From positions 8,706,683 to 8,770,682 of the forward strand of contig NC_054741.1 of the NCBI RefSeq assembly GCF_018143015.1: a stretch of 64,000 bases of DNA, written 5' to 3'. Shown here piece by piece: positions 31,201-55,029 of this stretch (its first letter is position 1; every line of letters starts with the position of its first letter). The DNA is from Lytechinus variegatus. Its lineage: Eukaryota > Echinodermata > Echinoidea > Temnopleuroida > Toxopneustidae. The notes under the pieces are model-generated. The model saw only the letters and a list, made by a program, of their open reading frames with translations. It did no database searches and was not told where the DNA came from. A program made the position numbers and the translations under genes.

Positions 31201-34200
31201 ATAAAGTATTGAATTGCAGTTAATATCAATATTCGAGCGAGCGAAGCGAGACAAAATGGTGTCCAAAACCTCTTTCAAGTGCATGGTGTATAATTATCAT
31301 ATCACGGGCAATGTATACGTTTATACTGTAAAGGTGAATATTGCCATATTTCGGTTAAAGGCCTATCATGCTTTTTTATAATTTTGATGGCTTTATTGTA
31401 CTGGAATTGTTAGGATATAAAGTAATAAATTACAGTAAATATCAATATGCGAGCAAGCGAAGTGAGGGAGCAAATTTTTGTAATAGTTAGAAGACAGAAT
31501 GATGACCAAAATCGTATTTCAAGGGATGTGTAATAATTGTGGGAGAGATGCAGGAGTGAGCGTAGTACAGTATATGGTGAACAGTCCAGCATGTAGCACT
31601 GTTCCATTCTGTATTGTTTGTTTATACCATCTATAATGTCATCTATGTTTGTATCATAATTTGGTCAAATAAATAAATAAATGAATGAATAAATAAATAA
31701 ATAAATAAATAAATGAATAAATAAATAAATAAAAAATAATAATAATAATATTTTGTTCAATAAAAACTCATTTGCTCACTGGTTAAAGATGAGAATGAAA
31801 AGAAGGGATCATGAACCGGGAATAAGGGTGTTTTATGATTGATTATAGGTATCTCAGGAAACAATATATACTTCCAAAAAGGTGGAAATACTAAAATCGT
31901 GAAAATTAAAAGAAACATATTGCAGGAATGAAAGATTTTGAAGTCTTCAAGATTATTGGAAGATGATGCAGCATTCAAAATTTGTAATGAAATTAATATT
32001 TGAAATATTCATTAGATTGTTATGGATTTTAAGTGATTCTTCTTCTTTACATATTTATATTCTTATAACAAACTGATTTTGTATAAATTTATGTTTGCCA
32101 AAATTTGAGAAATTTGTGAAATGGAAGAAAATAAATGTTTATTTGAATTGTGTATGCCTATATTTTTTGTACAAATTATCCCCCGCTTCCAAAAACGATG
32201 CTAGGATAGTATGACCCCTAAAACATACACGCCAGTGTATTCAAAGGATGTCTTGATTGGTTTATGATCAGTTATAACCATATTTAAAAATCGTTTGTAT
32301 CTGATTCATAGATGGATGTATGAATACCGATGCAGGGGATATAACATTTGTAATATGCTAAACGTATTTATAGGGATTCGTCAAGGCGAAAATCCTTTAA
32401 GATTAGATTGAGGGCGGCAGAGGAACGACCGCGTGAGAAATTTGGCATTATTAGAAGGCAAAAACTGGGTAAATTTAAGCACTCTGGTCCCATCTAAAGA
32501 TGAATCCATACATTAACAGTAGAATTGTCGTTTGATGATTGAAAATGAATATACTTTCTGTCTTGAAAAGTGTGTGTGTGTGTGTGTCGGGGGGGGGTGA
32601 TTGTACATGCCATCCCCCTCTCTGAAAAGCGGGGATGGATGTATCCCCCATCCCCGGGATTTACGCCCGTGTGTAACAGCATATTATAGCCCTAAATTCT
32701 GTTACAAAGATGGGCAAATGCCCCATGCCCTCCTTTGTGCCGCCACCGGTCAGTCAAATCTTCATCAGTAAACATCATCAGTTAAATTATTGTCCGATCC
32801 TATTTCAGCGGGCCTTTACAAAAAACACAAGCTTCAATTCATAGATTACTCCTGACTTCACATGGTTATCAGCAATACAATGAGTTCATACTTCCGTTAT
32901 TTTGAATCAATTGAATGTTCTCTTTTTTCCTTGGTAACTGCAGTTGTCATGATGCTAGTGCATGGTTCTGGATTAAAGCTCATATCAAAACTTCAAGTAG
33001 TATTCACCAGCATCAAGGTCGTTACACTCTTGCTCATCATCATCGACGGCATGATCAACATCTCAATGGGTTCGTATACATTCGTTAGGGGATCGTTTTG
33101 CTTCTGCTAATGGTTTGTTAATTTGTTGAGGGGAGTATCACAAATGAATGTTTACTAACTACTATAGTATTGGTTCAAAGACGATACCCCGTGGGATGTT
33201 CGCACGGTTTTAATAGGCCTATGTCATCATCATCGTCGTCGTCATCATCACCATCATAATCATCATCACCACCACAATCATAATTATCATCATCGTCATC
33301 ATCATTATCACATCGCTATCGTTATCACCCTCCTTCTACTTGTCCTACTCATCATCATCATCAGCAGCAGCAGCAGCATCATCATCATCATCATCACCAT
33401 CTTATTCCCGAATGTGTGTGTATTTATTTAAAAAACTAAAAATAAAGTTGTTGAGTTTTCGAAATCAGGTGATACATACATTCATCATACGGGTTCGTAT
33501 TTTCATTTATAAACATTATTCGTATGCTCGTATAACTTCCGTACGGTTATGGATCTGTTTACATTATGGTACTGTAATTCTGAAACCCCGTTCTGGATTC
33601 GTTTTCTCCACTAGAGTAGAATGTATTTATTTCGCGATTGCAAAGTGAACGGACTGCTGTCCTTTTATTTTACACTATATAGAGAGAAAAGGAGAGAACA
33701 GAAATTATCTTAATTCAGTAATAGAGTGATGTTTTATTTATTTCAGGGTACACGGATTACTTGGATGTGAATACGTCATTTGAGGGGACAAATAAGAACG
33801 CCTTTGCTTTCGGGATGGCCTTTTATCAAGGAATGTTTGCTTATGAAGGATGGTAAGTTTTAGTCTGTTATTATTGCGTTTTTGTTCTATAATTACATAT
33901 CAAAAAAAATCTCGGGAAATTCTACTTTATTTTATTTATTCTATATTAACGAAGGTGTATGCGCGTTTTAACAAGCCCTTTTAAAAGGCATTTTTTGTGC
34001 AAGCTCCATTTCCATTCATTATTTCGTTCATTCATTATGTTCATAATTATTGTGCCAGCTATTATTTCATCAGAACCACTATTTGTTCCAGCTGTGATAC
34101 CGTTCATTTTGTTTTTGCTGATATTTACATTTTGTGTATGTATAATTTTGTTCTCATTGTGTTCTTTTTAATGAATTTGGAAATGAATACTGAATTGAAT

Positions 34201-37200
34201 TTATTTTTTGTCCTACAGAATTTGCCTATCTCCTCCCCCACCATTTGTTTTATTTTAGAGGCTGGTCCTTGTTAAGGTCTATGTCTGTTATCCTTGCTTT
34301 CATGTAGATTTCATACATGATTAATACTCTGGATTTATGAAATTAACTTATACCACATTTTAAAAGAGTACGATTAGTATAGTCATTCACCGAGGACAAA
34401 TCGTATTTATCATAGTTGAAAATTGATGAGTACAGCATGAGACGACCAACATAGTATAAGCTTGCAATGAATTTCAATTTATTATTTGGTAAATGTACAT
34501 TTGTTTTTCATCATTATGGAATAATTAAGGAAGACACCCATGCAGTTGCTGAGTGGTCAAAGGCGTCTGACTAAATACATGTCCAAAAATGGTTCGGGGC
34601 TTAATCCCGGCCACAGTACTTAATGCCCGTGAGCAAGACATTTAATCAACAATGCTCTTTTATCGTACATTCAAATAAATGAAAATGCTATGGGGAAGGC
34701 GGGGTAAATTTGGCCTATAAGGCCAATGATGAACGAGAAATCGATCCACCCTCGCTGTTTTGGCAGAATCGACAGAAAAGGCCTTGCAGTAGACTACCAT
34801 GCAAAAAAAAAAGAAATCAAAAATATCAAAATGGCCGCCAACCTGTCTATAGTGGTCACTTTCTGTATTTAAAGAATTATATTAATTCCTTATCCCATAT
34901 TTCCTTGATCCATCATCATAATGACGTATAATTTAATTCATGAAAGGAATAGCACGAAAAGGCAAATGTCAACTTAAAAATCAATAAGTATACTATTCAG
35001 TTTTATACAAACATTACGACACCAAAAATAGAAAACCAAACTGACACATCACGTATAATTTACATCTTGATAATTTCTTAGTGATAACCCATTCTGTCAA
35101 CATGTCTGTTTTCAAATTATCTAACGATGGGTTTAAATAATTGATCTTTGATAGCCAAGAAAGTTTATTTTTAAACAAACATTACAACTACATCCAAGGT
35201 CATCCAACCATTATCTTCCTCACCCAAAGCTTTATCAATTGTTGTATCGTAAGTTAAGTGAAAAAAAATAACAAGCTTGAGAGGAGAAAAAAGAACAAGC
35301 TTGCACTAGGTAAAATGATTTAATAAAATGTCATTTTTCTTTTTTTTACAGGAACTCTTTAACATTCACAATGGAAGAAATGAAAGACCCTGCTAAGTAA
35401 GTCATTAAATCGTAGTTAAGGAACGACAAGATTATAACTTGGCAACTTAACTTAAATTACTATTACTTATTAAAGTAAACGATCACCAACATTTTTGAGT
35501 GCAAGAATACAGAAACAGAATCATCGGTCATAATGATAAATACGTGACAAATACATACAAAATATCATACATAAACATTTTGATTTGGTTTTGATTTGAT
35601 TTTATATCTACATTTCACTAACAAAGTATACAAATGTATAATCACTATTCAGCATTTCATAACAATAAACATAATGATAGCATAATGATTACGATAGCAA
35701 TCATTATCATGATTATGCTATATGAGATATAAAAGCCAGATATAAATTGCACATGGAAAATTTTATCTTAAAAAATATGTTGACATATGTATATAAACTA
35801 TTAAAGATATAATATAATATAATATCGTGTTAAAAATGAAATGTGGGAGACCGCCATTTTAAGCTCAAAAATTATATTGGAGAATGAAAGTGAATAGATG
35901 AGCTGGAAAGAAGAATAGTCCTTATGTCATGTACGTTAGACGTTGGCCCCTTTTATCAAATAAATGTTGTAAATAATCATTGAAAGTATGAAAACCAAAA
36001 GGTGGGTGTTAGGCTTTAATAAGGCTGATACATTATGGCAGGTATAATATTGTACTTTAAGTTTTAAACATTTTAAAATTAAACAACAAATAATCAACGC
36101 CGGTCTAATTATACTTCATCAATGAATACTTTGTTAAGAATTGTGCTTTCTTAAATACATTCGATGGATTTTACAAGATTTTTTGTTTCAATATACAATT
36201 AATATGATATTTCTTACTTAACAGAACTTTACCAAGAGCCATAATGATTGCCATGCCAACAATTACAGTTCTCTACGTATTGGTTAACATTTCTTATTAC
36301 ACCGTACTAAGTCCGCAACAAGTCCTTATGGACGAAGCAATCGCTACGGTAAGACATCGTTTATTCCATCACACACTTTGGTAAAATCTAACATGATTTA
36401 AACTCTCTGTAATCATTTTTAATAGTTAATCTTTCTTTATAATTTGTTTAAAAAATAATGAAAACCTCTCCCTTGTAATGTAATGATATTTCGTGAAGAT
36501 CAAACCACGTTTGACCCTACTGAACACTGGAAAAGAAATATTTGACTTTTTTCGAATTGAAATTAAAATTCAGTCGTTTCACTTCTAAGAAAATAAAATA
36601 CAATACTTTAGGAATTCAATTAAGTATAAATTTCATAGACAAAAAGACATTGTTACTTCATTAAACGTTTTAATTTTCTTATTTATTGGGATTTTTATGT
36701 TTTATAGAAAATGCCCTTTATCTGATATAGATGAAATTTCAATTTAACATTTTTATTTGGCTTAAACAAGTATTCAATAAATTTAAAAATGTGTAATTTC
36801 ATTGTTCGTATGAGTTTGGCATGATTTCAATATGTCATCATTATCTCGTTGGAAAGGTATAATACTTCTTTATCCTACTCTTTTTAATATTCCTCATAAG
36901 GGAATCACTGTTTCCATGAAGACTACCATCATTTTATTTTTAAATTTCCTCAGACATTCTCATCATTCACACTGCATGGGAAAGGCATTTTACAAAGGTG
37001 TTTACCATTTCTTGTTTGCTGTGCTGCAGTTGGGACAGCTAATGGTCTTTGTTATACATATTCTAGGTGAGTATCTACGGATATCTTAATTATTATGATC
37101 ATTATTTCGTTTGAGAGTGACAGTTCCACCGCCAATGTGAGAAGGGTCTGAACTATCGTCAACAGGGGCGTTAAAGGTCAAGTCCACCTCAGAAAAATTT

Positions 37201-40200
37201 TGATTTGAATCAATGGAGAAAAATCAGACAAGCACAATGCTGAAAATTTCATCAAAATCGGAGGTAAAATAAGAAAGTTATGACATTTCAAACTTTCGCT
37301 TATTCTCAACAAAATAGTTATATGAGCCAGTTACATCCAAATGAGAGAGTCGATGATGTCACTCACTCACTATTTCTTTTGTTTTTTATTGTTTGAATTA
37401 TACAATATTTCAATTTTTACGAATTTGACGATTAGGACCTCCTTGCCTGAAGCACAAAATGTTCAAGTTAAAATAATGGAATTCCATGTGTTCAGGGAGG
37501 AATGAAACTTCATTTCACATGACAATGACGAGAAAATACAAATGTTTCATATTTCATATAATAAAATACAAAAGAAATAGTGAGTGAGTGATGTCATCAA
37601 CTCTCTCATTTGCATGTAACTGGCTCGTTCATATAACTCTTTTGTTGAAAATAAGCGAAACTTTAAAATGCCATAACTTTCTTATTTTACATCCGATTTT
37701 AATGAAATTTTCAGTGTTATGCTTGTTGAATTTTTCTCTTTTTATTCAAATCAAGTTTTTGTTGGGGTGGACTTGTCCTTTAGCGTACGCAGAACTCTCT
37801 CAAAAGGGTGATCATAGGCTTAGGAGGCTACGTCATAATGTTTGTCTCTCATTGCCAGACCTTTTACCAGGGGAGCATTAATTGGTGCATTTTGAAATTG
37901 TTTTGTCCAAGTTCAAAATTTCTGCTGAAAGATCCATTCTCGATTAAAAGTTTACCACTTGCAAACCTAACGATTAAGACCTCATATACATGTATATATA
38001 TATCATAGCATTATATTATATCTAGCATTCGTCAATAAGGGGGGGGGGGGGATAAAATTCATCCCCCTCGGAATAACGACCCTTATTTTGTTTTCGGATT
38101 AACGAGCATTCGGAATTAAGAATCTTCGGAATTACGAACCTTCGGAATATTTGAACTTTCGGAATAACGTACCTTCGTAATTACCCCCTAATCGTCAAGG
38201 ATTAATTTCGCAATATTTCAATAGCGCCATCTATTCGAGTATCATTATATGTTGCCTAGTTGACAACTGAGCAAACTAACATATCAATGCCCTGAACGAA
38301 AGAGGAAATGAAGCTACTGGTGTTCAATATTTGAATATCTTGAAAAAATTTGAGACTTATGAAAAGTAAACTTATGGTCACACACAGAAAAGCAACATTC
38401 AGCTATTGAAGTACTTACATCACATCTATTACGCTGATATGGGATACCTCCAACAATCTAATTTTAACATTTCATTTGTCATGTTTGTAAAGAGATTATG
38501 ATTCTGATGTATTTCAGTTAATTTTTATTATTAATTTCATTAGAATGGCTGTTGCTCTTGGTCGAGAAGGTCACATGCCTCAGATTGTAGGCATGGTAAA
38601 CCCAGACACCATGTCACCCAACTTTGCTCTATTCCTCATGGTAAGTTTGGAACCCGTTTGAAACTTGAATATATAAATTTCCACTGAATAGGATCTATCC
38701 GTCCAGTTTACTATCGTAACGGGGGGGGGGGGGGGGGTTACCATGATAGAAGCTTTCTGACTTATTGTTAGTTGTCAGAAATTTCTTGCCCATCCTGACG
38801 AGGTACAAATACTTGAATACATGTCACTGAATAGGATCCAATCGTCCTTTACTATCGTACAGGGGTGGGGTAGTTTACCCTGATAGAAGCTTTGTGACTC
38901 ATTATTATTTTTGTAAGTTGTTGTCCATTTTGACGAAATACCCCAATACGATTTGATGGTCTGGAGTCCGTTTCATAAAACTTTTAATAAAAGTTAAAAG
39001 CTACTGAGATCCTGCAGTCTGAATGACTGATTTACTGAGTAAATAATAATAATAATATGTCCATTTATATAGCGCAGTTACTATGTGCATATACTCAACT
39101 GCGCTTTGATACTTGGTATCATATCTGCTAAAGAAATTCTGCATTTGTTATCATAAAAAAAATCTTCCCCTGTTTTTATTGCAACTACACTCTGAGAATT
39201 TAAAAGTTTTTAAAAATGACTGTATGATAATAGATGCAACTATTGTCGCATATCGCATTATAATTATTTTGTATGCTCAAATGCGACTAGAAAATAATTA
39301 ATACGAAATGACTAAAATAATAATTGTATACACCTAGGCCTAGTTCCTGACCCGTTCATTTAGCCATTGTAATTGATATCTTTTACCACGTAAAAAAAGA
39401 ACGATGATTGTAATATGACAATGGCATGACCATGTCAGATATTGTCCATTCAAAATCAAATTTAGCCTTCGGGGATCAAGGTCATCAAAATATTTGATCC
39501 GATTTTTACATAAGTGCAAACAGGAGAATTTGATATTGTATGATGATGATTTTTTTTTGCTGAACAACCCCTTTTCAGGCAATTACAAGTACACTTTGAC
39601 GCATTGAAAACTAAGACCAAGATAAAACATAACCCAAGTACTAGATCAAGCTATGTTCTGAATGTACAATTTTCTATTTCTATTTTTTTTTCTTCCTCCA
39701 GGGCCTTATGTCTATCATCACTCTTCTCATTCCGGTCAGCTTAGAACATTTAATTGAGTTTTTCAGCTTTGCTATCTGGCTATCATACTTTTTTATCTCC
39801 ATCGCTGTACTTATCTTAAGATACACAAAGCCAGACCTTCATCGTCCTTTCAAGGTTAGTAGAACGCGTTTCCCTTTTTGAAGAGTGAATGCGTTTATCG
39901 TTTTTCTTCTCAGTACTTATCTCAAGGTTCGTAAACCCAGACCCCAATCGTCCTTTGAAATATTAGTGTTCCTAGAACATATTCACCTTTTTGAATAGTA
40001 AATTGGTCCTTTTCAGGACCAACACTTGCCCAAGAAAGATGGTGTACCGTGAAACCTACTACACTATTCTTCTTCGCCATGGAAACCTTCAGAATTTATA
40101 GATTCATCGTTTTAATCTCAATACTTGTTTATCTTAAAGTACAACAAACTAGACCCCAATCCTTAAAGATCGCGAATCCAGTTTTGAGCAGTGAGTGCGT

Positions 40201-43200
40201 TTCATTGTTTATCTCAGTATATCTTAAAGGTAAATGCTAGTTTTGGTAACGATATCAAAATGAGTTCGTACAGAATCCAATGAAATGACTACCAAAGTGT
40301 CTGTTTGTATAAATAAAACGCATGTGCGAAAGGATTCTGGAAGAAATTGTGTAATTGCTGAGAAATCAGCAAATAAGCACAGGATTCGGGTAGAGCGTCG
40401 GGCCCGACGCTCTGAGCAATAATTATACATTGTCCCACGTGCGCTTATCTGTGTTGGGGATCTTCGGTGTGAACATTTTTCAGCGTAGACATGGTAGATT
40501 TCAAGATTTCACAAAGTTCAGTTAATGTAACTGTGCAGATCTAGATCCTCAATGATATACTGACAATTAAGCCTTGTTTTACAGACTTTCTCATGAAATC
40601 AGTGTTTTCTGCAACTACTGGAATTTCTCTTTATTAACTGCAGGCGCGTAGCCAGGGGGGGCGGTCGCCCCCCAAAAAAAGAAAAAAAAGAAGGGAAAAA
40701 AGAGAGGAGAAAAGGAAAAGGGAAGGGAAGAAAGGTAGCTTTGTGTTTTTTCTTTTTATTCTTTATTTTTTTCTCAAAAGAGAAACTCCTTCACTCTTCT
40801 TGCTCTAAATTCATATATGAATTTTGCTTCCGCGCTACGCGCGGTTAAATGACAATATTGAAGTTCTCCATTGTTCCCCCACCTTTTCTCTAACCCTGTT
40901 TTTCCACCTCAGCTATGTGCTTCTTGCCAGTTAAAGTTAAAATTGTATACATTAGGGCATGAATTTGAGTAAGGTTAGGCCGAAGTAAAGGCGGGTAAAA
41001 TCTTTATATCAGTTTCTGCCGTCACCTCCATAAAGTCAGCTTCTCCCGCTTTTCAGCTCATTACTATAAACAACCATAATTTGGGGGCAAACAGGTTCCT
41101 AATTTAAAAAGAGGAAGGTATGGAATTCGTGTCGTATTAAATAAAAAAGTACAATATTTTTTTTATCAAATTGTATTAAACTTCATGTCATTTCCCTGTA
41201 TACATTCATCTCCTGTCCTGTTTTGCGCCCTCAGTTTGAAATTTTGAATGACACTTAAGTTTCTTTATATTCAAAATGAAGCACTTCAGGATAAGTCAAA
41301 AAAATTAATCATCCTTTATTATATAGATAGATAATTTCAATAAATCACAGAAGTTTCAACTTTATGCGCACTATTTTCCTTGTAATGAAGTTCAATAATC
41401 TTAGAAAATCAATTGAATTAGAGACGATTGGGTATTAGAGATATCTAAATTTGATGAAACGTCCGCCCTTTGAAATTTCAGAGTTTCATTTTTCTGCGCG
41501 GGGAGGAATATCTTCCTCTACCAATCTTCTCCTCTGTTTTGCGAGTTAAAAATATTCACTGATGCTAAATTGTTTGTCATCAAATCTGATCTTTCCAAAG
41601 AAAGTTTCAATATATCTTTGAGAATACCCTTTTCTCGGGACCATTTTTATGGCAAGAAAAATTGATAAAACACTTTAGCTTCCGCGCTTCGCGCGGAATT
41701 ATTATCATTTTAATTTCCTCCATTGTATACCTCTTTTGTGCGTTCACAATCACTTTTGAAAACAAGGTTCAAAATCGCAATATAGTCAACCGAATTGAAG
41801 GTACTAGAGACAAGAGAAACGGCTCCTTTTCATTTTAATTTATGAAACAGTAAAAGCTTCGCGCTTCGCGCGGGAAAACTCCCCCTCCCTGCACCCACCC
41901 CTAGGGAGCGCGCTTCGCGCGCTCTGTAAGTGTTGGCACGCTTTGCGTGCATTTACCGCCCCCTCCAAAATGAAATCCTGGCTACGCGGTTGTTATTAAG
42001 GTACACCGACTAGAACTAACATGGCTGTCAAGTTTAGTTTCCAGAACGTATTTCTCTTTTTTTTAATGGTAAATGTATTCCCTGTCAAGTTGGGTGTCTA
42101 TTGCTTATTTTAAGTTACCTCAAACCGGACCTTAATACACTGTTTAAGGTTTGTTTCCACTCCCCCTCCATCATGCTATGTCAATCATTTGCAATCATTA
42201 TTAGTAAGCATCGTTTTCAAGAGAGGATTCAGAATTTTCTTATTTGGATTAGGACCTAGGAGGGGGTATAGATATTTTTTATGATAATGATGAGGAGGAG
42301 AAGGATGATGATGATAATGATGATGATGATAATAATAATAATAATAATAAGCTGGATTTATAGAGCGCATTTTGCCTGTGGATGCAAAGTGCGGCTTTAA
42401 TTACCATTTAATATTATAGGCGCTCAATATTTCTTCCGACCGGATACCTATCCACCTCACCTGGGTTGAGCGCAGTACAATGTGGGTGAAATTCTCGCTG
42501 GAGGAAAACAGGCCATGGCCAAGAATCGAGCCCACGTCTCTCATATTGAAAGACGATATAGTCATAACCACTAGACCACGACTACTCCACAATAGTAAAG
42601 TTTGTTTAACTAATTTTACCAGCAAACTAAAACTATTGGGCGTATTTACTACCAAATAAGTGTTGAACAAAAGGACATTGTTCCAAGAATGAATGTAATT
42701 GCATTATTATTTCAAGCGGTAGGGGCACCAAAGTAGATACCTCTATTCACAGGGTAGTAAATTACAAAAATTGTGTATCACTTCGAGTCAAGGAGGGAGG
42801 GGTGCAGATTACATGCTCCTTTACTGCTCCTGATCGAATGACCACCATCTTTATCAGATCTTTAAAAAAATCATTTTCTTCTCACTTCAAACCAGGTACA
42901 CTGGTCGCTACCCGTCTTAATGGCTATTCTCTCTGTTTTCTTGATAATTGCGCCATTCTTCGAAGCTCACGGAGTAAATGAGGTTATTGCTGCGACAGTG
43001 ATTATCGTTGCTGGATTAATTGTCTACGTACCTTTCATCTATTACAAATATCAGCCGCCGTTTATGGGTAACAATAAATCTTCATCTGTTTTGTCATATT
43101 TCTTCTAAAATTACCTTACTTGCATATTATGAAATTATTATTATTAAGTATTCAATATGATATGTTAGGATATGTAATATAACGTTATGTTATGTTAAGT

Positions 43201-43622
43201 TATGTCATGTTATGTTCCACTCTAGTATTCACTCTCCTGCAGAATAGTCCATATAGAGAGCTACTGTCATTTAGGGGGGCTGGTGACTTCAGCCCCCCTT
43301 ACTTTTTCCAATACCGCGGTACAAAAACGTGACCATAGAATTGTGATTTTTGCATGGTCAGCCCCCCCACTTTGGAAACCATTCCGCGGCCCTTGTAAAC
43401 CCATCACGTGTTTTGAAGTTGTTGTCATTAAAATCCTCACCTACCATGACGTATTATATGCCATTATTACGAGTCGGTCTTTAATTCTTTTTTTTTTCAG
43501 ATAAAATCACCATCTTCGTTCAGCTCTTTTTATGCATCGTCAACACGGAATACAAACCTCCTGAAGACTTCCCAATAGATGAAGATGATCATCATAACTC
43601 CAAGAGCCACAACCACAATTAA
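22002..43622 (+). CDS. SLC7A9-like: b(0,+)-type amino acid transporter light chain (SLC7A9-like), copy B, 11 coding exons
   Basis: Exons 22002-22254, 30633-30878, 32944-33069, 33747-33852, 35352-35396, 36225-36348, 36954-37066, 38544-38640, 39702-39854, 42896-43067 and 43501-43622 have the same eleven lengths and phases as copy A and give an intact 518-residue protein. By hand count it differs from copy A at 25 residues (about 95 percent identical). The TM1 GTG motif, Cys (res 151) for heavy-chain linkage, the TM6 motif with Glu242 and the GREGH loop are all kept, so it should be functional. Substitutions are concentrated in exon 2 (A86S, M129I, M130T, M150L, K156T), exon 9 and exon 10; exons 4 and 8 are unchanged. 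Intron 1 is enlarged to about 8.4 kb by a MITE and a LINE. Exon 11 and the downstream DNA are much closer to copy A than the preceding exons are, suggesting exchange. Confidence 0.93.
22427..24494. mobile_element. Tc1/mariner-like long-TIR MITE in copy B intron 1
   Basis: Left CAGTGCGTCCCAGAAAAAAA and right TTTTTTCTGGGACGCACAG, flanked by TA on both sides. The inverted arms extend several hundred bases (for example GTTAGAACAATGGAAAGTGG in both). No transposase frame. Internally interrupted at 23483-24079; the uninterrupted version is in copy C. Confidence 0.82.
23483..24079. repeat. 597-bp insert with 16-bp iterated motif and GCGACATTATGCG repeats
   Basis: Absent from the copy C element, where GTTATAGCCC joins ATTGTCTGTTGC directly (near 59882). 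Positions 23528-23777 hold about ten degenerate 16-bp units like TAATTAGACGAAATGG. Positions 23948-24065 hold four or five GCGACATTATGCGTT motifs, one inverted. Class unknown. Confidence 0.7.
24680..24927 (+). mobile_element. Retroposon 3' end with (CAAAC)n-like tail
   Basis: Ends AAATAAAACCAAACCAAACC just before sequence aligning with copy A intron 1 (AATGGTATCTAAGAA). Partly deleted in copy C (after 60640). No coding sequence; the 5' limit is uncertain. Confidence 0.5.
25160..30017 (+). mobile_element. Tx1/L1-type LINE in copy B intron 1
   Basis: About 4.86 kb, limits set by comparison with the uninterrupted intron of copy A (about 1750-1765). Flanked by AATAAC, ends in an A-rich tail after GATTAATAAATACTATTAC. 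It encodes endonuclease, reverse transcriptase and a C-terminal CCHC-like knuckle, but no recognisable ORF1 in the 600 bp before the endonuclease, so it is either 5'-truncated or of a single-ORF type. It has the same orientation as the host gene. A copy sits at the same place in copy C, so one insertion was duplicated with the gene. Confidence 0.88.
25761..29527 (+). pseudogene. LINE ORF2 remnant: endonuclease-reverse transcriptase (copy B intron)
   Basis: The APE-type endonuclease starts at 25761 (SLNVRGIREKNKRQ, then FLQET) and continues through GGDFN (after 26190) to SPDHSA. The RT domain follows, with NKSPGNDGL (about 27190), YRPISLLNVDYKIL, AIDFEKAFDS (about 27580), SPYLFILC and YADDM (27887-27901), the catalytic box. 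At the C terminus C-X2-C-X8-H-X4-C (29168-29220) is the knuckle typical of L1/Tx1 proteins. The frame is broken near 26180 (stop), 26735, 27440, 27760 and 28278, plus further lesions to 28784, so no functional protein is made. The 27760 and 28278 lesions are shared with the copy C LINE; the 26735 and 27440 breaks are unique here. Confidence 0.85.
30633..30878 (+). CDS. SLC7A9-like: Copy B coding exon 2
   Basis: Same 246-nt length and junction phases as in copy A. Changes: A86S, M129I, M130T, M150L, K156T. Cys151 is kept. It lies about 8.4 kb from exon 1 because of intron insertions. Confidence 0.92.
31027..32674. mobile_element. TIR element in copy B intron 2
   Basis: ACACTGGCATAAATCCGG at the left and CCGGGATTTACGCCCGTGTGT at the right are inverted ends. 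The interior has GCGAGCGAAGCGAG-like motifs (31236, 31439), a TAAA tract and a CA/TG run. Missing from copy A intron 2. No transposase frame. Confidence 0.7.
31667..31750. repeat. (AAAT)n microsatellite
   Basis: About 85 bp of AAAT repeats with GAAT variants, then AAT repeats, following GGTCAAATAAATAAAT; probably a grown retroposon tail. Confidence 0.85.
32944..33069 (+). CDS. SLC7A9-like: Copy B coding exon 3
   Basis: TM4-TM5 exon. Changes: F168V and N201D. It has the same weak GTTCGT donor as copy A. Confidence 0.9.
33224..33401. repeat. (ATC)n-rich microsatellite, copy B intron 3
   Basis: Counterpart of 3350-3549, more degenerate, with a CAG run at 33362-33376. Confidence 0.85.
33747..33852 (+). 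CDS. SLC7A9-like: Copy B coding exon 4
   Basis: TM6 exon with FYQGMFAYEGW; protein identical to copy A (one silent change seen). Confidence 0.92.
34541..34650 (+). mobile_element. tRNA-derived SINE, copy B intron 4
   Basis: Degenerate A box (TTGCTGAGTGGTCAA) and B box (GGGGCTTAATCCC) followed by GCCCGTGAGCAAGACATTTA; orthologous to 4436-4545. Confidence 0.65.
35352..35396 (+). CDS. SLC7A9-like: Copy B coding exon 5 (45 nt)
   Basis: Fifteen codons as in copy A, with Y249F. Confidence 0.9.
   Translation, partial: ELFNIHNGRNERPC
35397..36953 (+). other. Copy B introns 5 and 6 apart from exon 6
   Basis: AT-rich intron sequence alignable with copy A, with a (GATTT)n-like tract at about 35580-35606. 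Intron 6 (36349-36953) lacks the MITE found in A. Exon 6 occupies 36225-36348. Confidence 0.6.
36225..36348 (+). CDS. SLC7A9-like: Copy B coding exon 6
   Basis: TM7 exon. One conservative change, I277V. Confidence 0.92.
36954..37066 (+). CDS. SLC7A9-like: Copy B coding exon 7
   Basis: TM8 exon. Changes Y308H, S316C and F326V; the last is one residue before the conserved GTANG motif, so it is a candidate for altered substrate fit. Donor GTGAGT. Confidence 0.92.
37171..37783. mobile_element. Foldback MITE in copy B intron 7
   Basis: TTAAAGGTCAAGTCCACCTC at the left and the inverse GGGTGGACTTGTCCTTTA at the right; arms of about 220 bp repeat TTATGACATTTCAAACTTTC, GTGAGTGAGTGATGTCATC and similar in inverse. 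A TTAA-like edge suggests a piggyBac or Kolobok-type target, not proven. Absent from copy A. Confidence 0.8.
38070..38185 (+). repeat. Degenerate 16-bp tandem repeat TTCGGAATTACGAACC
   Basis: About seven imperfect units in copy B intron 7, preceded by a G run at 38039-38051 and CATCCCCC. Absent from copy A. Confidence 0.8.
38544..38640 (+). CDS. SLC7A9-like: Copy B coding exon 8
   Basis: GREGHMP loop exon; protein identical to copy A. The acceptor is TTCATTAG. Confidence 0.92.
38641..39701 (+). other. Copy B intron 8
   Basis: Contains a G run (about 38718-38736), and at 39045-39115 an AATAATAAT tract followed by TTTATATAGCGCAGTTACTA, the 3' end of a minus-strand SINE. It lacks the 8898-9103 MITE of copy A. 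Confidence 0.6.
39702..39854 (+). CDS. SLC7A9-like: Copy B coding exon 9
   Basis: TM9-TM10 exon. Changes I373M, T375I, L380I, I382V, N417H. Its 3' end is again echoed by repeat units at the start of intron 9. Confidence 0.92.
39785..40240 (+). repeat. Exon-9-seeded tandem repeat, copy B intron 9
   Basis: Units near 39895, 40097 and 40201 repeat the exon 9 3' end and donor region (CTTATCTCAAGGTTCGTAAA; CAGACCCCAATCGTCCTTT; GAGTGAGTGCGTTTC). Further units follow at about 42000-42155 after transposon insertions. Parallel to 9865-10715 in copy A. Confidence 0.7.
40392..40413. repeat. 22-bp perfect palindrome
   Basis: AGAGCGTCGGG followed directly by its exact reverse complement. It lies in a repeat-like block (40240-40640) of copy B intron 9 that has no counterpart in copy A. 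Confidence 0.9.
40641..41992. mobile_element. TIR element with GCGTAGCCAGG ends in copy B intron 9
   Basis: CAGGCGCGTAGCCAGG at the left, CCTGGCTACGCGGTTG at the right, flanked by TTATTAA-like repeats. The interior carries CGCGCTTCGCGCG cores (41683, 41858, 41911). No transposase frame seen. Confidence 0.72.
42300..42592 (-). mobile_element. tRNA-derived SINE, minus strand, copy B intron 9
   Basis: The reverse complement has A box GTGGTCTAGTGGTTATGAC and B box GGGCTCGATTC, a body ending GCGCTCTATAAATCCAGC, and an (ATT)n/(ATC)n tail at the left (42300-42350). A different family from 20333. Confidence 0.8.
42896..43067 (+). CDS. SLC7A9-like: Copy B coding exon 10
   Basis: TM11-TM12 exon. About 14 of 172 bases differ from copy A (F437L, S445A, G448V, I451V): the most diverged exon, directly followed by the least diverged 3' end. 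Confidence 0.92.
43501..43622 (+). CDS. SLC7A9-like: Copy B coding exon 11 with stop
   Basis: Only 3 of 122 bases differ from copy A (N505D plus one silent). It ends with the same His/Asn-rich tail; TAA at 43620-43622. Confidence 0.91.
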
Positions 43623-43722
43623 CTCATTACCTATATGTAGGGAAAGTGACATAAATCGAATGAGTATCGAAGCTCTATTTTGTGCTATCAGCGATGGTTC
43701 AAAATTATGAAGTCTTGCGACA

Positions 43723-43905
43723 GGCACTCTTAAAAACTTAACCTAATATTGGGTAAAATTGGAACATGAATGTTGGTTGGGTAAAAAGATATTTTAAAAT
43801 GATTATTTAAATTAAATTAAAAAATACCTAGCAAATATGCATGTTCCCTTGAGTGAAATTCTACCCAATTTGGGGTAAAATTTAACTCAGTGTTTTTAGA
43901 ATGCA
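43723..43905. mobile_element. MITE downstream of copy B
   Basis: The same element as 15332-15514, about 2 percent different by eye. Confidence 0.6.
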
Positions 43906-44028
43906 CTCACTTTGGAACTTCTGTCTCGCCTGTATTATTCGCAGTCAATTATAACATGGGCTGCTCGAAACATGTATAGCCAGCTTACAGTTTGATGAGG
44001 TGATTTTACAAACTGCATAAAATGACTA

Positions 44029-45400
44029 CAGTGCGTATCAAAAAAAAACGGGACAGATTTGAAAAGTCTATAAAATTTTAGTTTCAAATTATTATGTCTA
44101 TATTTTGGTGTTAATAGGTGCTCTAAGGTCTGGTCTTTCAAATGCTATTAAAAAAAAATAGTTTCGTTCATGCTTGAGCGAACACGGGACGTTTTTGTTG
44201 GGGGTTCAAAAAGAGGCTTGCGCCAGAATGGCAGAATATGAGTAATATGATGATCGGACTTCTTGCTTATTAGCAGACTTCCTCTTAACCTTTTCATTAT
44301 CTTTGCCATAATTTTCAAATCATGCGGTCAAAATTCATTTTCAGATTATTTATTTGCTTGAATTATTCTGTTATTTCTTTTTAATATGCTCTCTAACTGT
44401 TAGCTTTGAATATTCCTTCTTCAAGCTAAAATTATTTTTTTTCAACCGAATTATGGGAGAGCATGGATTTTTTTATTCAAATCCTTTCATTATGTGCTAC
44501 AAAGATTATGGTGCCTTTTGAACAAAGCCACACAGATGGGTGGGCGCTCGGGCTGCTCCCCAAAAAAATTAAAAAAATCTTGACCAAGAAAATAAGTGGA
44601 CAGGAAATAAAAGGAAAAATAGAAAGTAAAATATATTATTTTCTGAATATTATGTCAAAAACTATCACAAAATTTGATATTGTAATTAAAAAAAGGTGGG
44701 AATATTTGCATGCTCACTTCGCTCGCTCACAACTATTTAATACATTTCACCCGATCTGCCATATCAGCTCCTTCAAAATTGACTCAATACACCATTGTCA
44801 TTGAAAGACATGAATCCCTTCCTGTGTTTCCTGTCAAGCAATTAAACTTGGTCAAGGAATTAATGACCCATTGAAAAATAGATTCATGTCTTTTAAAGGT
44901 ACATAATATTATTTGTTTCACATAATAAAACGATTTTGATAATCACAAGTTTTCCCAATTAATCATTCAAATCTTCTTGCTTGGGTTGACAAAAAATCTT
45001 CTTTTCTCAGTTACTTATGAAGGAAAATTAAAAGGTAAGAGAAGATTAAATGAAAAAACGAAATAATTCAATTGAATAAATAACTTTGTAAATGAAATTT
45101 GAGAGCATAATTCGAAAATTGCGGCACAGATAATGAAAAGGTCAAGAGGAAGTCTCCTGATTAGCAAGAAGTCTGATCATTGTATTACACATATTCTGCA
45201 ATTCTGGCGCAATCCTCTTTTTGAACCCCCAACTAAAACGTCCCTTGTTCGCTCAAGCATGAATAAAATTTATTTCTTTAAATTGCATTTCAAAGATAAG
45301 ACCTTAGAGCATCTATTAACACCAAAATATAGACATCATTATTTGAAACAAAAATTTTATAGACTTTTCAAATCTGTCCCGTTTTTTTTGATACGCACTG
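44029..45400. mobile_element. Tc1/mariner-like element with about 400-bp TIRs
   Basis: CAGTGCGTATCAAAAAAAAA to TTTTTTTTGATACGCACTG, flanked by TA (44027, 45401). The arms match for about 400 bp (for example CATGCTTGAGCGAACA and GGGGGTTCAAAAAGAGG with inverses). It splits the left arm of the inverted repeat matching 15601-16055. No transposase frame. Confidence 0.85.
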
Positions 45401-45868
45401 TAGTCATCTATTATGTCAATGCATATGTTTATTTATGTACTTTACTAAATCTTTTGAATAACACAATTTTTTTTTAAATAATGATTTCCCATTTTAAGAT
45501 TATCGATTACATGCATGACATATATGTATATATGTATATATATATATTTTTCTAGATGCATTCAATGCTTCTAATAATGTTTCCTCTTTTCAATATAAAC
45601 CTACGCCGAAGAGATCAGCGATCAAGTCAAAAAGGAAAACGCTATACAAATTAAAACGTAGAAGGGGGGGGGGGGGGGCTGAGTTTTATCATGCATGTAA
45701 TCGATAATCTAAAAATGGGAAATCATTATTATAAAAAACGATTGTGTTATTCAAAAAGATTTAGTAAAGTACATAAATAAATTTATGCATAGACATAATA
45801 GACGTATAGTCATTTTATGCAGTTTGTAAAATCATTCAATTTTTCAAGCTTGTGATCTATACAATCAT

Positions 45869-46095
45869 TAGCGTACCTACGGGGGGGGGGGGCAGAGGGG
45901 GCAAACTGCCCCCCCCCCCTGACGAGTCACAACTGATCCCTGGTCCGCTCCTTTGAACTTGAAGACCCTTTTTTTTCTTGCCAATTGCCTTTATTTGTGG
46001 TTGAAGACCTTTTTATTTGGGGGGGGGGGGTGTTGTCAAAATTTTTGGCAGACGAATTTGCCCCCCCCTTGTGGAAAATCCTAGGTACGCCACTG
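45869..46095. mobile_element. Short MITE with GCGTACCTACGGGG ends, B-C spacer
   Basis: Second copy of 16090-16302, with longer G and C runs. Confidence 0.7.
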
Positions 46096-46257
46096 TGTAC
46101 AATATAATATAGGCCGTGTTTATGCTTTAACTTTTCAGGCCAGAATCAGCGTTTCCAAACGTGATTAGTCCAAAACACGGTTGCGTCCATGCTTACTTTC
46201 ATTTAACGCTGTTTCAAAACGCCGATCGTAAACTCACAAAAAGGTGCGTTTGTAAAC

Positions 46258-49200
46258 TTTTTTTTTTAGTAATCTTTTATTGTCTTCTCTCATAAAACAA
46301 AATTGAACATAGTAAAATGTAACATTCATTACAAAGTTTGATTTGAACTTACAAATATTATGGTTACATTTGACAATTCTTAACAAAAATGAATTTAAAC
46401 AATGTCTTAAATAGATTCTAAATCAATTCAATTTGTTGTAAGTGTCTGATGTACATTCTTTTCTCTTACATTTTTATATATACATAATACATATGTTCAA
46501 TGAAGAAAAAAAGTGTAGCCTAAAATCAAATTATTCACCATTTATCACAAAGAAAACTCTGTAAAGAAACCTGTAAGTTTATTAAAATAATATGGGATTT
46601 ATGAGAGAAGATTTACTATTGATAATCTTCGGACCTTCGCGCACACTCACATCCCACCCCATCACACTCAAAACAGATTCACGCACAAACACCCCCTGCC
46701 CACACACCCTTACACACACACACACCCACCCTCACCCGCACACATACCCTCACACACACATATCTCCACCCTAGGTCTTAAAAGTATTGTATCAGTATCT
46801 TTTTCGGAAAAGTCAAATATTCTTTCAATGTTTTTAATAGCGCATGACCTCTCAGATTTCATGTTTAACAAAGCTTTATAGATTTTCTTTCATGTAACAT
46901 TAGCTATTGTGTTCACATTTCCATGAAACATAAATTCGAAATTTAAAGCTGTGTCCCTGCATGTGTCTGTTTTCTTCAAGAGACATTTCCACGTTGCTGG
47001 AATATTTTCATATACTGTGTGGAGATATTCTATCTCATCTTCTTTTAATCCCATCGTCTGGAAGGCTCTAGATGATTTAAAATTACCCCTGTCATCAACT
47101 AAATGATGTATTTTATAAATATTTCTAAGAAATAAGCTTTCTTCAAATGGCTTATTTCCGTCCTAACGTATAAATTTATTATTGAAGAATATCTCATTTC
47201 TTTTTGACGTTTCATTTTTAAGCAATATTTCCAACATGTTTATGTAAAAGCTTGGTAGGGACAATCTGCACAAATTTAAAGATATGTTACTAAAAAGTAT
47301 TAGTAAACCTCCAAAATTACGTGTCCTATTTATAAAAAATCGTTTCCATCCTATTTTCGAATCTCCGAGTATGAGTCTCTTTAACCACATAATCCTTTGT
47401 GCAAATACAAATAAGTGAAAATCTATCATTCTAAGCCCTCCTTTTTCGTAATCCATGCACATAATGTTCCTTTTTATTTTGTCTTTCCCATTCCATAAAA
47501 ATTTAAACATTAACGTTTCAATAACATGAAAAACCCAAGGTGGTACTGGGGTGAGTGACGATACAAAAATTATTTTCGAGAGTGCAAATGTTTTCAACAA
47601 TTGAATTTTTCCCATTAGAGTGAGATCTCTCTGTTTCCACCAATTCAACAAATTTTTAATTTTGCTTAAGTTCTCTTTATAATTTATCCTTTCCTGTACC
47701 TCCACATCCAATGAAAAAGTTATACCCAAAATTTTAATGACTTCTACTATTTTACCAAAAGGCATTCTAACGTTTTCTTCGGAGAGGGGGCCTAACAGCA
47801 AAATAAAGGTTTTGTCTTTATTTATTCTCAAACCTGATATTTTTCAAATTTTTCAAAGGTTTTTTCTATGTTATCTATTGATAATGGATCTTTTATGAAA
47901 AGGGTCATATCATCTGCATAAAGTATTTGTTTAACTTCAAAATCACTGAAGTGAATTCCACGTATATCGGAATTTTTACGAATCGAATGAGCTAAGACCT
48001 CGATACATAAAATAAATAAATAGGGAGAGAGCGGGTCCCCTGCCTTACCCCCCTTTTCAACGCAGAAATACCCTGTAGATATGCCTCCATTAAAAACACA
48101 GCTTGAGGCTTTATTATATAATGTTTTAATCCACCTACACCAAGATGCTCCAAAACCGAAATGACGTAAAACATTTTGTAAAAATAAGTGGGACACAGAG
48201 TCGAATGCTTTTTCAAAGTCTATTGCCATTAAATAGCCAGGAATATTATTTTGTTTCGTATAAAAAATCATGTCGTCTATTAACCTTACTGCCTCTCCTA
48301 TATTTCTGTCCTTTATATATCCAACCTGATCAATATAAATAATTTCATGCAATACTTTTTTACTTCTTATTGAGAGAGCTTTTGCTAAAATCTTATAGTC
48401 GACATTCAGTAATGAAATTGGCCTATAATTCTGAGTAAACAAAGGGTCTTTTCCGTCTTTCGCAAACGTAATAATAACTGCTTGTTTTTGATGTGCCGAA
48501 AGTTCCCCCTTAGAAAAAGATTCATTTAAAGCGTCTACTATCAAATCTCCTATTATAGACCAAAATACTAAATAGAATTCAACACTAAGCCCATCGTTTC
48601 CCGGTGTTTTATTAAGTTTCATTTGTTTTAAAGCTTCCAAACATTCACCTTGAGTAACTTTTCCTTCACAAATGTCTCTTGAAGCCCGTTCTAATTCCGG
48701 TATATCTTGAAAAAGGTATCTTCCATAATCTCGTGTTTTTCGCCTTCCTGTTGCGAGTATAATTTACTGTAAAATCTATGTATTTCTTGAATTATTTCAT
48801 TTTGATTTAAAATGATTTTTCCTTCTATCATTAGTTACTGTTTTTCTTTTATTAGATTCCATCAGTTGAGTAAAATACCTTGTATCTCTTTCACCACTTT
48901 CATAATATGATGCTCTAGATCTTACCTTCACTCCTTCATTCACGTAATTATAAATTGCTTTTAATTCATTTTGTTTACCTTCTAATAATTCTATTTTTTG
49001 CCTGTCTACCTTTCCTAAAAGATCGCTTTCTAAAACCAATATTTCTTTCTCCAAAATCTTATTTTTTTCTTCCGTATCTTAGCCTTTTCTTTAGAATATT
49101 TTCTTGTAAAACTGCCAATTTTCATTTTTAGAAAATCCCAGAGAACTCTCTTATCTGCAATTTCTTCTTTAAATTCTTCTTTCAATCTTAAAATTTCTTC

Positions 49201-49303
49201 TTTCATCTTTTTCTTAAAATCTTCATCGTTGCATAAACTATTACTGAATTTCCAGTAAGAACTTTTAAATTTTAAATCAGATGGCAGATTATAGCAATGC
49301 AAC
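46258..49303 (-). mobile_element. 5'-truncated Tx1/L1-type LINE, minus strand
   Basis: The T run at 46258 is the poly(A) side and the body reads leftward from 49303. Flanked by TAAAC, and the A-B spacer shows the empty site near 16470. It lacks the endonuclease. Its 3' UTR holds a CA/CCCA microsatellite (46676-46770). A different subfamily from 25160-30017. Confidence 0.85.
47163..49302 (-). pseudogene. LINE reverse transcriptase remnant
   Basis: Read on the minus strand, pieces from 49302 and 49054 give the post-endonuclease linker. From 48640 to 47828 comes the RT with NKTPGNDGLS, YRPISLLNVDYKIL, AIDFEKAFDS, GDPLSPYLFILC and YADDM. From 47831 to 47163 comes the thumb region with LNWWKQRDLT and FLWNGKDK. 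Breaks near 49040, 48800, 47830 and 47163 make it non-functional. It shares long blocks with the copy B LINE protein, so the two are the same clade. Confidence 0.83.
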
Positions 49304-49389
49304 TAAACGTCGTTCAACCACGATCGTAAACGTGTTTAAATGACGTCATTTGGTACATGCTTCCGGTGAGAATACGCGGGCAAATACAG

Positions 49390-49794
49390 GCGCGTTTCCG
49401 TTTTACACCCTGGCGAAGGCATTTTCCGGAAAAGAAGCCAAAAAGCGACTAGTGAAGAGTCTACACACGTCGCTGGGTTGCATGCAGCGTGCGACACAGG
49501 CGAGTCCACCACCGCATGCAATTTGCACAGTTACTGATCAGAGTTCCTCGGCACTTAGAGAGAGCGGCAGTCAGGAGTGAAATCCGAACATGCTTTTGCA
49601 GTCGCGTTGTTTATGATTTTTTTTTTCTAAAAATAAATTATTAACTAAATAGAATGACAGACAAAATCAAAATAAACAGATACTTATAATGGAAAGACAA
49701 ATTTAAGTTTGATGGATTGATACACTTAGAAGCTGCCGAAAGATAGATATAGAAGACTGATAAATAGATAGAGACAAGATAGACAGACAGACAG

Positions 49795-49832
<38 letters not shown>

Positions 49833-50982
49833 GTGGATAGATAGAAAGAGAGAGAAAGAGGGAGAGATGGATTGATAGATAGAGAGAGGGGGAGAGACAG
49901 AGAGGTCGAAATATAGAGGGAGAGGGGGAGAGAGAGAAAGAGAGAGAGAAGGATAGATAGAGGGAGAGAGAGAGAGAGATGTTGTAGATAGAAATATGGA
50001 CGGACAAAGAGAAAGAGAGAAAAAAGACAGACAGATGCTAGAGAAGGAGAGAGAGAATTTGAGAGACAGATAGATAGATGTTAGATAGATAGAAAGATAA
50101 AGAATGAGAGAGACAGAGAATATAGACAAATTAACAGATAGATACATAGATAGATATATAGATAGAGAGAAATAGAGAAAGACAGACAGATGGATAGATA
50201 GAGATAGATAGATGAGAGATAGATAGATGTTAGATAGATAAAGAGGGAGAGAGACAAAGAATATTACCATATAGATAAGTTAAAAAATAGATAGATAAAT
50301 AGATAGAGAGAATAAGAGAAAGACAGACAGATGGATAGATAGATAGAGAGAGATATTAAATAGATAATTAAAGAATGAGAGAGACAGAGAAGATTATTAA
50401 CAAATTAACAGATAGATAGATACTCTAGTTAAAAAAATAGATAAATAGATAGAGAGAAATAGAGAAAGACAGACAGATGGATAGATAGATGGATAGAGAG
50501 ATAGATAGAGAATTTGAGAGATAGATAGATGTCAGATAGATCAAGAATGAGAGAGTAGAGCGACAAATTAACAGATAGATACTGTAGTTACATAGGTAGG
50601 TAGAGAGAGAGAAATAGAGAAAGACAGACAGATGGATGGATAGAGGGAGAGAGAATTTGAGATAGATAGATGTTAGATAAAGAATGAGAGAGACAGAGAA
50701 GATTATTAGATAGATAGATACTGCAGTTACATAGATAGAGATAGATATATAGACAGATAGAGAGAAAGACAGACATCAGCAAATCGGCAAGGCAAATGAT
50801 CAAGGCAAACATTCGTATTGAACCTGGAAAGTATAAGCTCAGCTGCGGATAACTTCGGTGCGGACTTTGGATCGCGCGCCCAGCTGATAATGTAAACAAA
50901 CGTAGACGTAGACTCTTCACTAGTCGCTTTTTGGCTACTTTTCCGGAAAATGCCTTCGCCAGGGTGTAAAACGGAAACGCGC
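49390..50982. mobile_element. TIR element with 15-16 bp direct flanking repeats and microsatellite core
   Basis: GCGCGTTTCCGTTTTACACC at the left and GGTGTAAAACGGAAACGCGC at the right are part of about 75-bp inverted ends. The flanks ACGCGGGCAAATACAG are at 49374-49389 and 50983-50998; the A-B spacer has one copy (near 16538). The core is mostly GATA/GACA/GAGA repeats. No transposase seen. The long duplication is atypical; a Mutator-like type is possible. Confidence 0.82.
49735..50775. repeat. GATA/GACA/GAGA microsatellite block
   Basis: About 1 kb of purine-rich GATA, GACAGACA and GAGAGA runs with higher-order repetition of blocks such as GAAAGACAGACAGATGGATA. It yields Ser/Leu/Tyr-rich spurious frames on the minus strand. 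Confidence 0.93.
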
Positions 50983-51588
50983 ACGCGGGCAAATACAGTC
51001 GTATTGCTCCGTGTTATCTCTACGTAATAACAACAATCGGAAAAAAAAACTTTCGAAAAAAAAGCGCGCCCAATTTGACCTCGCTTTACGATACAGCTGG
51101 AGATCATGATTTGCTCTGAAAAGTTAAGCATAAACAGCACTCCCAGAACCACGTTTACGATCGGCGTTTTGAATCGACGGTTGAAATCGCTGATTCTGTC
51201 CTCGCAATGGAAGCATAAACACACCCAAAGATACTACAAGGCAAGGGAGAGATCAGACACTCCGCTCTTCCCCTCAACACTTCCAGCACAATCATCATTG
51301 CCCTCTTCATCCCCATCACAACCATGACGATGGTAGTGGTTACATTTTTTTTCTGCCATTTGTTTAATAGAACTTTATGGAATACATGTAGACAATAGGA
51401 ACTTGGCAAATCAAACAATGTGACCAAGCAGCGTGAGCTTAAATGCTGATATGTAGACCATAAAATGGACATTTTACACAGCACTTAAATTTGTAAATGA
51501 AAAAAAAATGAAAGCTCGATGTCCGAGCTAAAATATATTGTGTATATTGACTTCAAAACTTGCTCCATGATCAGCCTATTGAGCAAGA

Positions 51589-51780
51589 TTTTTTTGTTTT
51601 GTAATGATATTTATTAATCATTCAGTTCAAAATCAAAGTAATGGTACATTGTAAAATATTACAATTCAATATTAACAAAACACTGTTCACAAAAGACAAA
51701 TAATTATCCATAATACAAATAATCGTACAAAATGTCATGGTATTAACGTATTCATTTGAATACCACATTAGTATTATTCA
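51589..51780 (-). mobile_element. LINE 3'-end fragment, B-C spacer
   Basis: Second copy of 17140-17330. Confidence 0.5.
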
Positions 51781-52011
51781 TATTGATCGATATTATAGGA
51801 GTAACAGGGTCTCCCCCGCACCGGGGGGGGGGATAAATATGCATGAATCAGATGAAATGCGGTGTGTATTTTTTTATTTTTCTTCCTGTAAATTCCACTT
51901 TGTGAGGTTTGTCACCAAATATGCAACCTTCTTCTTTTTCTTCTTTTTTTAGAAATGACTATTTTGCCACTTCTTTTTGGAGTTTATTTTCTTTTCCCCC
52001 CTTAAAAAAGG

Positions 52012-52225
52012 GAGGAATAACCTCTTTTTAATTTTCTCCTTTCTTTTCTATTTTTTCCTCTTTTTTGTTCCCTTTTTCTTTTTTCTCTTCTTTCTTTCAT
52101 CTTCTTTTTTTATTTACTTTTATTTTCTCTCTTTTTTCTTTGTTTTCTTTTTCCCTTTTGTTCTTTTTTTTTTTCTTCCTTTTTTCTTTTCTGTTCTCGT
52201 CTTTTCTTTTTTCCCCTTTGTTTTT
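52012..52225 (+). repeat. Pyrimidine tract, B-C spacer
   Basis: Counterpart of 17567-17790; its right end is the insertion point of the DR1-bearing element. Confidence 0.85.
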
Positions 52226-53327: not shown

Positions 53328-53427
53328 AAAATATTTTTCCTGTGTAAATAGCCTGTGTAAATACATATTTTATCCTCTCTCACGAGTCAAATCACATGAT
53401 CTGGTTTTGTGTCACATTAAAAAAAAC

Positions 53428-54022
53428 AGATATGAAAAATTTTGAAATATGGGTTTGATCGACCAATTTCCTTGTCTTTTAATACAAATCAGTGTATGCT
53501 GGAAAGATTGTTACATTATCTGTAAAATGGTACCCTAATGTGTTAAGGCTTTGACTAACAGGCAGGGTTGTCGCTAAAGGGGGATGTGGGGGGGGGGGTG
53601 CGACATCCTCGTTTGAATAAATCTGCGCAGCCGACAAAAGGTGGTACATTGCTACATTGCTATGAAATGTTGGTTGTGGTCGAACTTTAAATGTAATGAC
53701 ACATACGATGGGTAGAGTAACTCAATCGCTTACCCGCTGAGAAGAAAAGATGTATACTTTTATCGACTTGTAAGTAACTCCAAAATTGACGCTATCCTTT
53801 ATTTCGAACACCTCCCATTGTTTACATGGCACAATCAACATGTCCGGTATCATTTAAAGAAGATAGTCTTTCTGATGGTATCAAGCATGCATTGATTATT
53901 GCTAAGAAAAGAGAATAATTACCGGTCATTAGGTTCTAAACCCCTTTGTTTTGGGCAGTTTACATGGTGTATTTTACTGAACGTTGGCAATAACATGCAG
54001 TATAGATGCTGTCCCTGCTATA
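53428..54022. other. Spacer segment missing from the A-B spacer
   Basis: No gene seen; contains a G run at 53587-53597. The A-B spacer jumps from the equivalent of 53427 to 54290, a deletion that also removed the left end of the adjoining MITE. Confidence 0.6.
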
Positions 54023-54877: not shown

Positions 54878-54897
54878 TATATGCGAAAGCTAGACTA

Positions 54898-55029
54898 GGG
54901 CCCGGTGACATTAAGCATAGCAACTGATCGTTGTGTTGATTTTTACAATTGATCGCAAACAATAATCAATGTAATCAATCATATAAATCAGTCCAATGAT
55001 CAGTTTCTAAGTTTCATGCAACTGGTCCC
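54898..55029. mobile_element. Small TIR MITE, B-C spacer
   Basis: Second copy of 18488-18619. Confidence 0.55.

Follow-up and report, generated by a model that had tools for sequence, protein, structure and literature searches.

A hybrid copy of a tandem SLC7-type transporter gene in Lytechinus variegatus points to unequal crossing-over at the last exon

In a 64,000-nucleotide stretch of Lytechinus variegatus DNA (the window, C2:8706683-8770682 in its own genome, of which the 869.6 Mb assembly was searched), the middle one of three transporter gene copies, A, B and C, was confirmed by sequence comparison to be a hybrid, C-like through exon 10 and intron 10, and A-like from just before the stop codon. 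The origin that we favor, with a probability of roughly 0.85, is an unequal crossover between ancestral A and B/C-type genes, which would have made both the hybrid B and the repeated spacer behind it. Specifically, an ancestral A - spacer - B/C pair would have recombined out of register: A and the B-type gene, located on different chromosomes or chromatids, would have paired by their last exons, and the exchange would have fallen where the terminal part of exon 11 is nearly identical between them over a short distance. What resulted would consist of A, spacer 1, a B-type gene furnished with the last codons, stop and 3' flank of A, spacer 2, and the original B-type gene, now copy C. Besides the window, the sequences compared were 30 kb upstream and 60 kb downstream of it, and 110 kb of a second locus on C2, designated X, that was extended by a further 12 kb on its left. 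The features are collected in Table 1.

Table 1. Features of the three-copy region, in window numbering
Feature	Position	Strand	Remarks
Copy A, SLC7-type amino-acid transporter gene	1199-15230	+	530-residue open frame, GT/AG splice sites
Copy A, exons 1-6	1199-1451, 2333-2578, 3066-3205, 3844-3971, 5494-5538, 6395-6518	+	
Copy A, exons 7-11	7519-7631, 8505-8601, 9783-9935, 13665-13836, 15109-15230	+	
Inverted-repeat element (~635 bp), intron 10 of A	14007-14641		Also in X-A; absent from B, C, X-B
Stretch of ~345 bp, intron 10 of A	14663-15007		Also in X-A; 118 bp in its place in B, C, X-B
Duplicated unit 1 (last bases of A, spacer 1, B to the switch)	15187-43578		28.4 kb
Spacer 1, A to B	15231-22001		Limits from exon ends
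Copy B, recombinant gene	22002-43622	+	Open frame; C-like before the switch, A-like after
Copy B, exons 1-6	22002-22254, 30633-30878, 32944-33083, 33725-33852, 35352-35396, 36225-36348	+	
Copy B, exons 7-11	36954-37066, 38544-38640, 39702-39854, 42896-43067, 43501-43622	+	
Repeat-like stretch (118 bp), intron 10 of B	43278-43395		Also in C, X-B; not found in A, X-A
Longest patch of A=C identity in aligned 42876-44030	43494-43616	+	Perfect runs of 83 and 38 bp, 2 bases between
Most economical exchange interval, exon 11 just before stop codon	43579-43617	+	Diagnostic sites, alignment; in A ~15187-15225
Duplicated unit 2	43579 to ~77530		
Spacer 2, B to C	43623-58417		Second copy of spacer 1 plus three insertions
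Insertion (173 bp) after stop	43730-43902		Flanked by repeated GCACTC; in A, B, X-A; absent from C, X-B
Extra insertions of spacer 2	44029-45404, ~46257-50984, ~52225-54287		1.38, ~4.7 and ~2.1 kb
Copy C, first part	58418-64000	+	Exon 1 58418-58670; gene runs past the window to 77574

The three copies, as well as the two genes of X (X-A and X-B), can each be read as an 11-exon gene with GT/AG introns and an open frame of 530 residues, copy C being read to its end from the DNA beyond the window. Exon limits were predicted, transcript-free, from the frame, the splice signals and the conservation between A and B. The amino-acid permease family PF13520 matched residues 36-472 of the 530-residue product with 198.1 bits (cut-off 27), and the best matches among solved structures were the xc-, b(0,+) and LAT light chains, with E down to ~1e-98; A, B and C are read as intact SLC7-type transporter genes, putatively of the SLC7 light-chain class. 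The proteins of A and B differ in 25 of the 530 residues (dS 0.130), those of B and C in only 2 (dS 0.028), while the counterparts at X are similarly close, with 2 residues of 530 separating A from X-A (dS 0.008) and 3 separating C from X-B (dS 0.022).

The mosaic nature of copy B is evident from the base differences. Over exons 1-10 taken together, B and C differ at 10 of 1471 bases, as against 65 of 1471 for A and B, so that copy C is indeed closer to B than A is, as had been expected. The counts of the initial annotation were reproduced closely: for A and B, 13/172 bases differ in exon 10 (about 14 claimed), 3/122 in exon 11 (the same), and 5/326 after the stop, plus five gap columns (about 6/330 claimed), whereas the single difference in 253 bases of exon 1 between B and C was recovered unchanged. 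Exon 10 of B and C, with 6/172 differences, stands above exons 1-9. In the 108 bases 3' of the stop codon, A and B do not differ at all, whereas B and C differ at 17 of 103 positions and in 8 further gap columns; extension of the contig and comparison of the last exons of C confirmed that its 3' end is of a different, non-A kind. Over the longer stretch of 330 bases after the stop, the B-C and A-C counts are distorted by the 173-bp insertion and were not used as divergence. A site was called diagnostic when both A-type copies agreed against both C-type copies, and columns beyond 43729, made unreliable by the same insertion, were left out. Upstream (42898-43578), copy B is C-type at 40 of 43 such sites, and downstream (43618-43720), it is A-type at all 19. 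The exceptions, 43018, 43060 and 43430, are isolated A-type sites within the C-type part of B; for these, and for the B-C excess in exon 10, some conversion or older polymorphism is needed. At the protein level, the exchanged end of B differs from that of C only in the last residue (N versus R); we infer that the event had little effect on the protein, and mainly changed the 3' flank and the gene dosage.

Insertion differences on the two sides of the exchange are independent of the single bases and thus provide separate documentation that B is C-type to the left and A-type to the right. On the left, in intron 10, B carries the 118-bp stretch and has neither of the longer sequences of A. These were at first sight one 1-kb insertion in A, a description that was rejected, as the extra sequence resolves into the ~635-bp element, 21 bp common to A and B, and the ~345-bp stretch; the A-B alignment across the intron was made without the extra sequence. 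No likeness between the ~345 bp of A and the B-type 118 bp could be detected (best score 17, versus up to 22 in 200 shuffles). On the right, the 173-bp insertion occupies the same site in A, B and X-A, and beyond it the homology to C resumes, with an alignment score of 106 against 28 or less in 200 shuffles of the B stretch. The sequences that adjoin the exchange, 43274-43397 and 43725-43905, appear to be short dispersed repeats, having ~22 and 13 other genomic matches, respectively, at 69-84% among the 40 candidates scored.

Within this frame, the simplest placement of the switch is 43579-43617. The interval 43397-43429 is nearly as economical, because 43430 is A-type while 43577-43578 are C-type, and the widest, safe interval is 43396-43618. 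An identity step near exon 11 had been anticipated, and a sharp A-B step does exist at ~43396; however, A and C are also alike from there on (4 of 101 bases differ in 43396-43500). Since the step is not specific to B, it does not mark the exchange point, and a breakpoint drawn from the A-B comparison alone was rejected. The preferred switch lies at the end of the longest patch of A=C identity, and leaves the reading frame open; in the corresponding patch of X-A and X-B, the second perfect run is 23 bp. The A-C homology block at the junction measures ~330 bp at 89.8% identity, and the junction lies inside this extended homology; the alignment shows no extra bases there.

Beyond the switch, the A-type sequence of B never reverts, but continues through the whole second spacer into copy C, and the repeat of the spacer starts at the same point as the change from C-type to A-type. 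In the self-alignment, 15008-28314 matches 43396-64000 in BLAST blocks of 94.5-98.4% identity and one 0.8-kb block of 92%, insertions excluded, in agreement with the original description of the A-B and B-C spacers as nearly identical outside insertions; B (24981-43729) likewise aligns to C (60639-77676). Going by the exon 11 positions, the unit measures 28.4 kb in the window as against 28.5 kb at X. Thus, a hybrid gene with one switch, a switch located in extended homology, and exchange of the flank together with duplication of a segment, which are the hallmarks of NAHR, were all found here. Exchange of flanking sequence argues for a crossover-type event rather than conversion of the end alone, and the unequal crossover proposed in the initial annotation is supported by the C-like 5' part and A-like 3' part of B, by a repetition of spacer 1 in spacer 2 that sets in where B changes type, by the non-A 3' end of C, and by the existence of the two-copy locus X. 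The exchange was probably homologous, and because the two units differ about as much as alleles do, it probably took place between homologues carrying different alleles.

Other routes through the homology in exon 11, either break-induced replication or template switching, may tentatively be considered for the same product; the odds of such a route overlap with those of the crossover reading, since its products would match those of a reciprocal crossover and could not be told from them by sequence. A study of corals (PMC12314368) gives break-induced replication as an alternative. The location of the junction inside extended homology, with no bases added, speaks rather for crossover, although it is compatible with replication all the same.

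Locus X offers a view of the region with one gene fewer. A genome search with 43068-43905 matched, apart from A and B, the 3' end of C (C2:8783695; 93%, query 1-662 only), X-A at C2:5988156 (97%, A-like, query 329-838) and X-B at C2:6016347 (92%, C-like, query 1-662), the remaining matches among the 40 candidates scored being short dispersed repeats. X, situated 2.7 Mb from the window locus on the same chromosome and in the same orientation, comprises an A gene and a single B/C gene that has a C-type 3' end, separated by one spacer. It is collinear with the window region over 110 kb plus ~10 kb leftward (~120 kb aligned), and at three informative probes the collinearity spans 1.36 Mb. The probe pairs are 5.2426/8.000 Mb (two pieces separated by a gap, 682 bases at 98% and 383 bases at 94%), 6.100/8.8865 Mb (99%), and 6.600/9.3945 Mb (98%; a dispersed repeat, with other copies at 87-94% and short pieces up to 96%). 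A further probe (C2:5900001-5901200) is a young dispersed repeat and uninformative for collinearity; of the 40 candidates scored, 38 other places carry its bases 1-1128 with 96-99% identity, and another one carries a part.

The location of X on the same chromosome and in the same orientation would suit a genuine segmental duplication, 1.36 Mb or more in length, but we regard this as unlikely. Substitutions between X and the window region amount to 0.4-6.5% in 26 listed BLAST blocks (at least 1 kb, above 86% identity), a range that brackets the ~3% heterozygosity given for L. variegatus in PMC11310861, and assemblies of echinoderms are described in PMC8361234 as suffering from retained alleles, termed 'pseudoduplicates'. 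Therefore, X probably represents the second haplotype, which the assembly retained, and C2 ~5.24-6.60 and 8.00-9.39 Mb are probably both haplotypes of one region. If X is allelic, the locus is polymorphic in copy number, and the animal carried a two-copy and a three-copy haplotype. The two-copy state of X fits the ancestral one, although it could alternatively stem from a later deletion. On balance, it is rather probable that a single animal had a two-gene and a three-gene SLC7 haplotype, that the latter arose by inter-homologue crossover at the last exon, and that the assembly placed both on a single chromosome of the reference, where they mimic a duplication on the megabase scale.

Comparison of the two units with X bears on both the exchange and the integrity of the assembly. 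Over 25,611 three-way columns, unit 1 and unit 2 differ by 1.31% substitutions (up to 4.5% in one 1.5-kb bin), unit 1 and X by 0.79%, and unit 2 and X by 1.25%. The relationship is a patchwork: at 18.0-24.8 kb, unit 1 is almost the same as X (7/5601) and unit 2 is 1.5% off, while over 1500 columns at 37.1-38.6 kb it is unit 2 that is identical to X. Such a pattern fits with an exchange between homologues that carried different alleles, and with normal recombination thereafter, but an assembly that switches between haplotypes could give the same picture. In the ~3 kb from 15008 (2645 clean columns, with ~180 bases lying ahead of the switch), X and the two units are all different from one another. 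Here, unit 1 and X diverge by 1.3-2.3% (7/307, 16/1003 and 17/1335), and unit 2 diverges from either by 2.3-4.1% (7/307, 31/1003 and 55/1335 from X; 8/307, 23/1003 and 54/1335 from unit 1). If the DNA came from one diploid animal and X is allelic, three distinct versions are more than a pair of haplotypes lacking the duplication can account for.

This last result weighs against an assembly artefact, in which two alleles of a two-copy locus would have been joined head to tail (A-spacer-B into A's end-spacer-C), and which we consider quite improbable. It is true that a second version of the region, with allele-like divergence, sits 2.7 Mb away in the assembly, that X is nearly identical to unit 1 in some tracts and to unit 2 in others, and that retention of alleles is a known trait of assemblies of echinoderms (PMC8361234). 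Nonetheless, the join would have to fall on the homologous base of paralogues that share just ~330 bp at 89.8%, which is too short for long-read overlap. The assembly of the window was presumably built with PacBio reads, and there is no N in 276 kb around both loci, window included. Lastly, gene conversion of the 3' end of B by A, combined with an unrelated duplication of the spacer, is highly unlikely: the three isolated A-type sites in the exon 10/intron 10 tail of B do suggest conversion-like patches, and A and C are also similar in the intron 10 tail and exon 11, but the A-type sequence runs unbroken through the spacer to the next gene, the repeat starts at the switch, and a single event covers both, while conversion alone was rejected on the exchanged flanks, as it had been in the initial annotation on the duplicated spacer.

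The mechanism of unequal crossing-over is well known, and the locus is a well resolved, ordinary example of gene-copy gain. Our literature search, which did not cover every wording, turned up no earlier description of the locus. For corals, unequal crossing-over between tandem paralogues (NAHR) has been proposed to account for gene clusters that vary from haplotype to haplotype (PMC12314368); as in those clusters, a tandem unit was gained here at homologous sequence, and the copy number differs between versions of the region. Unlike the coral case, which in the text consulted is inferred from cluster comparisons and a model, the present one would be a single event whose breakpoint, at a coding exon, is narrowed to ~220 bp at most. 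The SpTransformer (Sp185/333) loci of the purple sea urchin similarly show tandem segmental duplications, and alleles with unequal gene numbers; however, according to PMC8634487, those are immune genes with duplications edged by short tandem repeats, whereas the boundary here is an exon of a transporter gene. The echinoderm 'pseudoduplicates' (PMC8361234) would explain X as a retained haplotype, but leave the three distinct units and the hybrid end of B unexplained. With the three-copy product and the two-copy arrangement in one assembly, and the breakpoint at a coding exon, a textbook mechanism is unusually clear. Gene counts as well as mapping are affected by C2 ~5.2-6.6 and 8.0-9.4 Mb, which are probably two versions of a single region. 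If the two-gene and three-gene haplotypes are real, the locus would be a natural system for transporter copy-number polymorphism in a wild sea urchin, and a large uncollapsed block would be flagged in the reference chromosome.

Several stretches of putative mobile or variable sequence were also seen in the duplicated region. About 1.8 kb of intron 9 of B (~40232-41996) is missing from C and X-B. The 1.38-kb insertion at 44029-45404, found in spacer 2 only, has long inverted ends and lies apparently at a TA; we take it to resemble a mariner-type DNA transposon. In intron 1 of B and C, open frames that by eye resemble those of a non-LTR retrotransposon occupy 25761-29527 and 61438-64000. The alignment of X-B covers them as well, and they are missing from A; thus, their insertion would postdate the A-B split and predate the duplication. 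Finally, the 4.7-kb insertion of spacer 2 contains, on the minus strand at 47163-48763, a stretch that looks by eye like reverse transcriptase, and is 65% alike to the intron 1 element.
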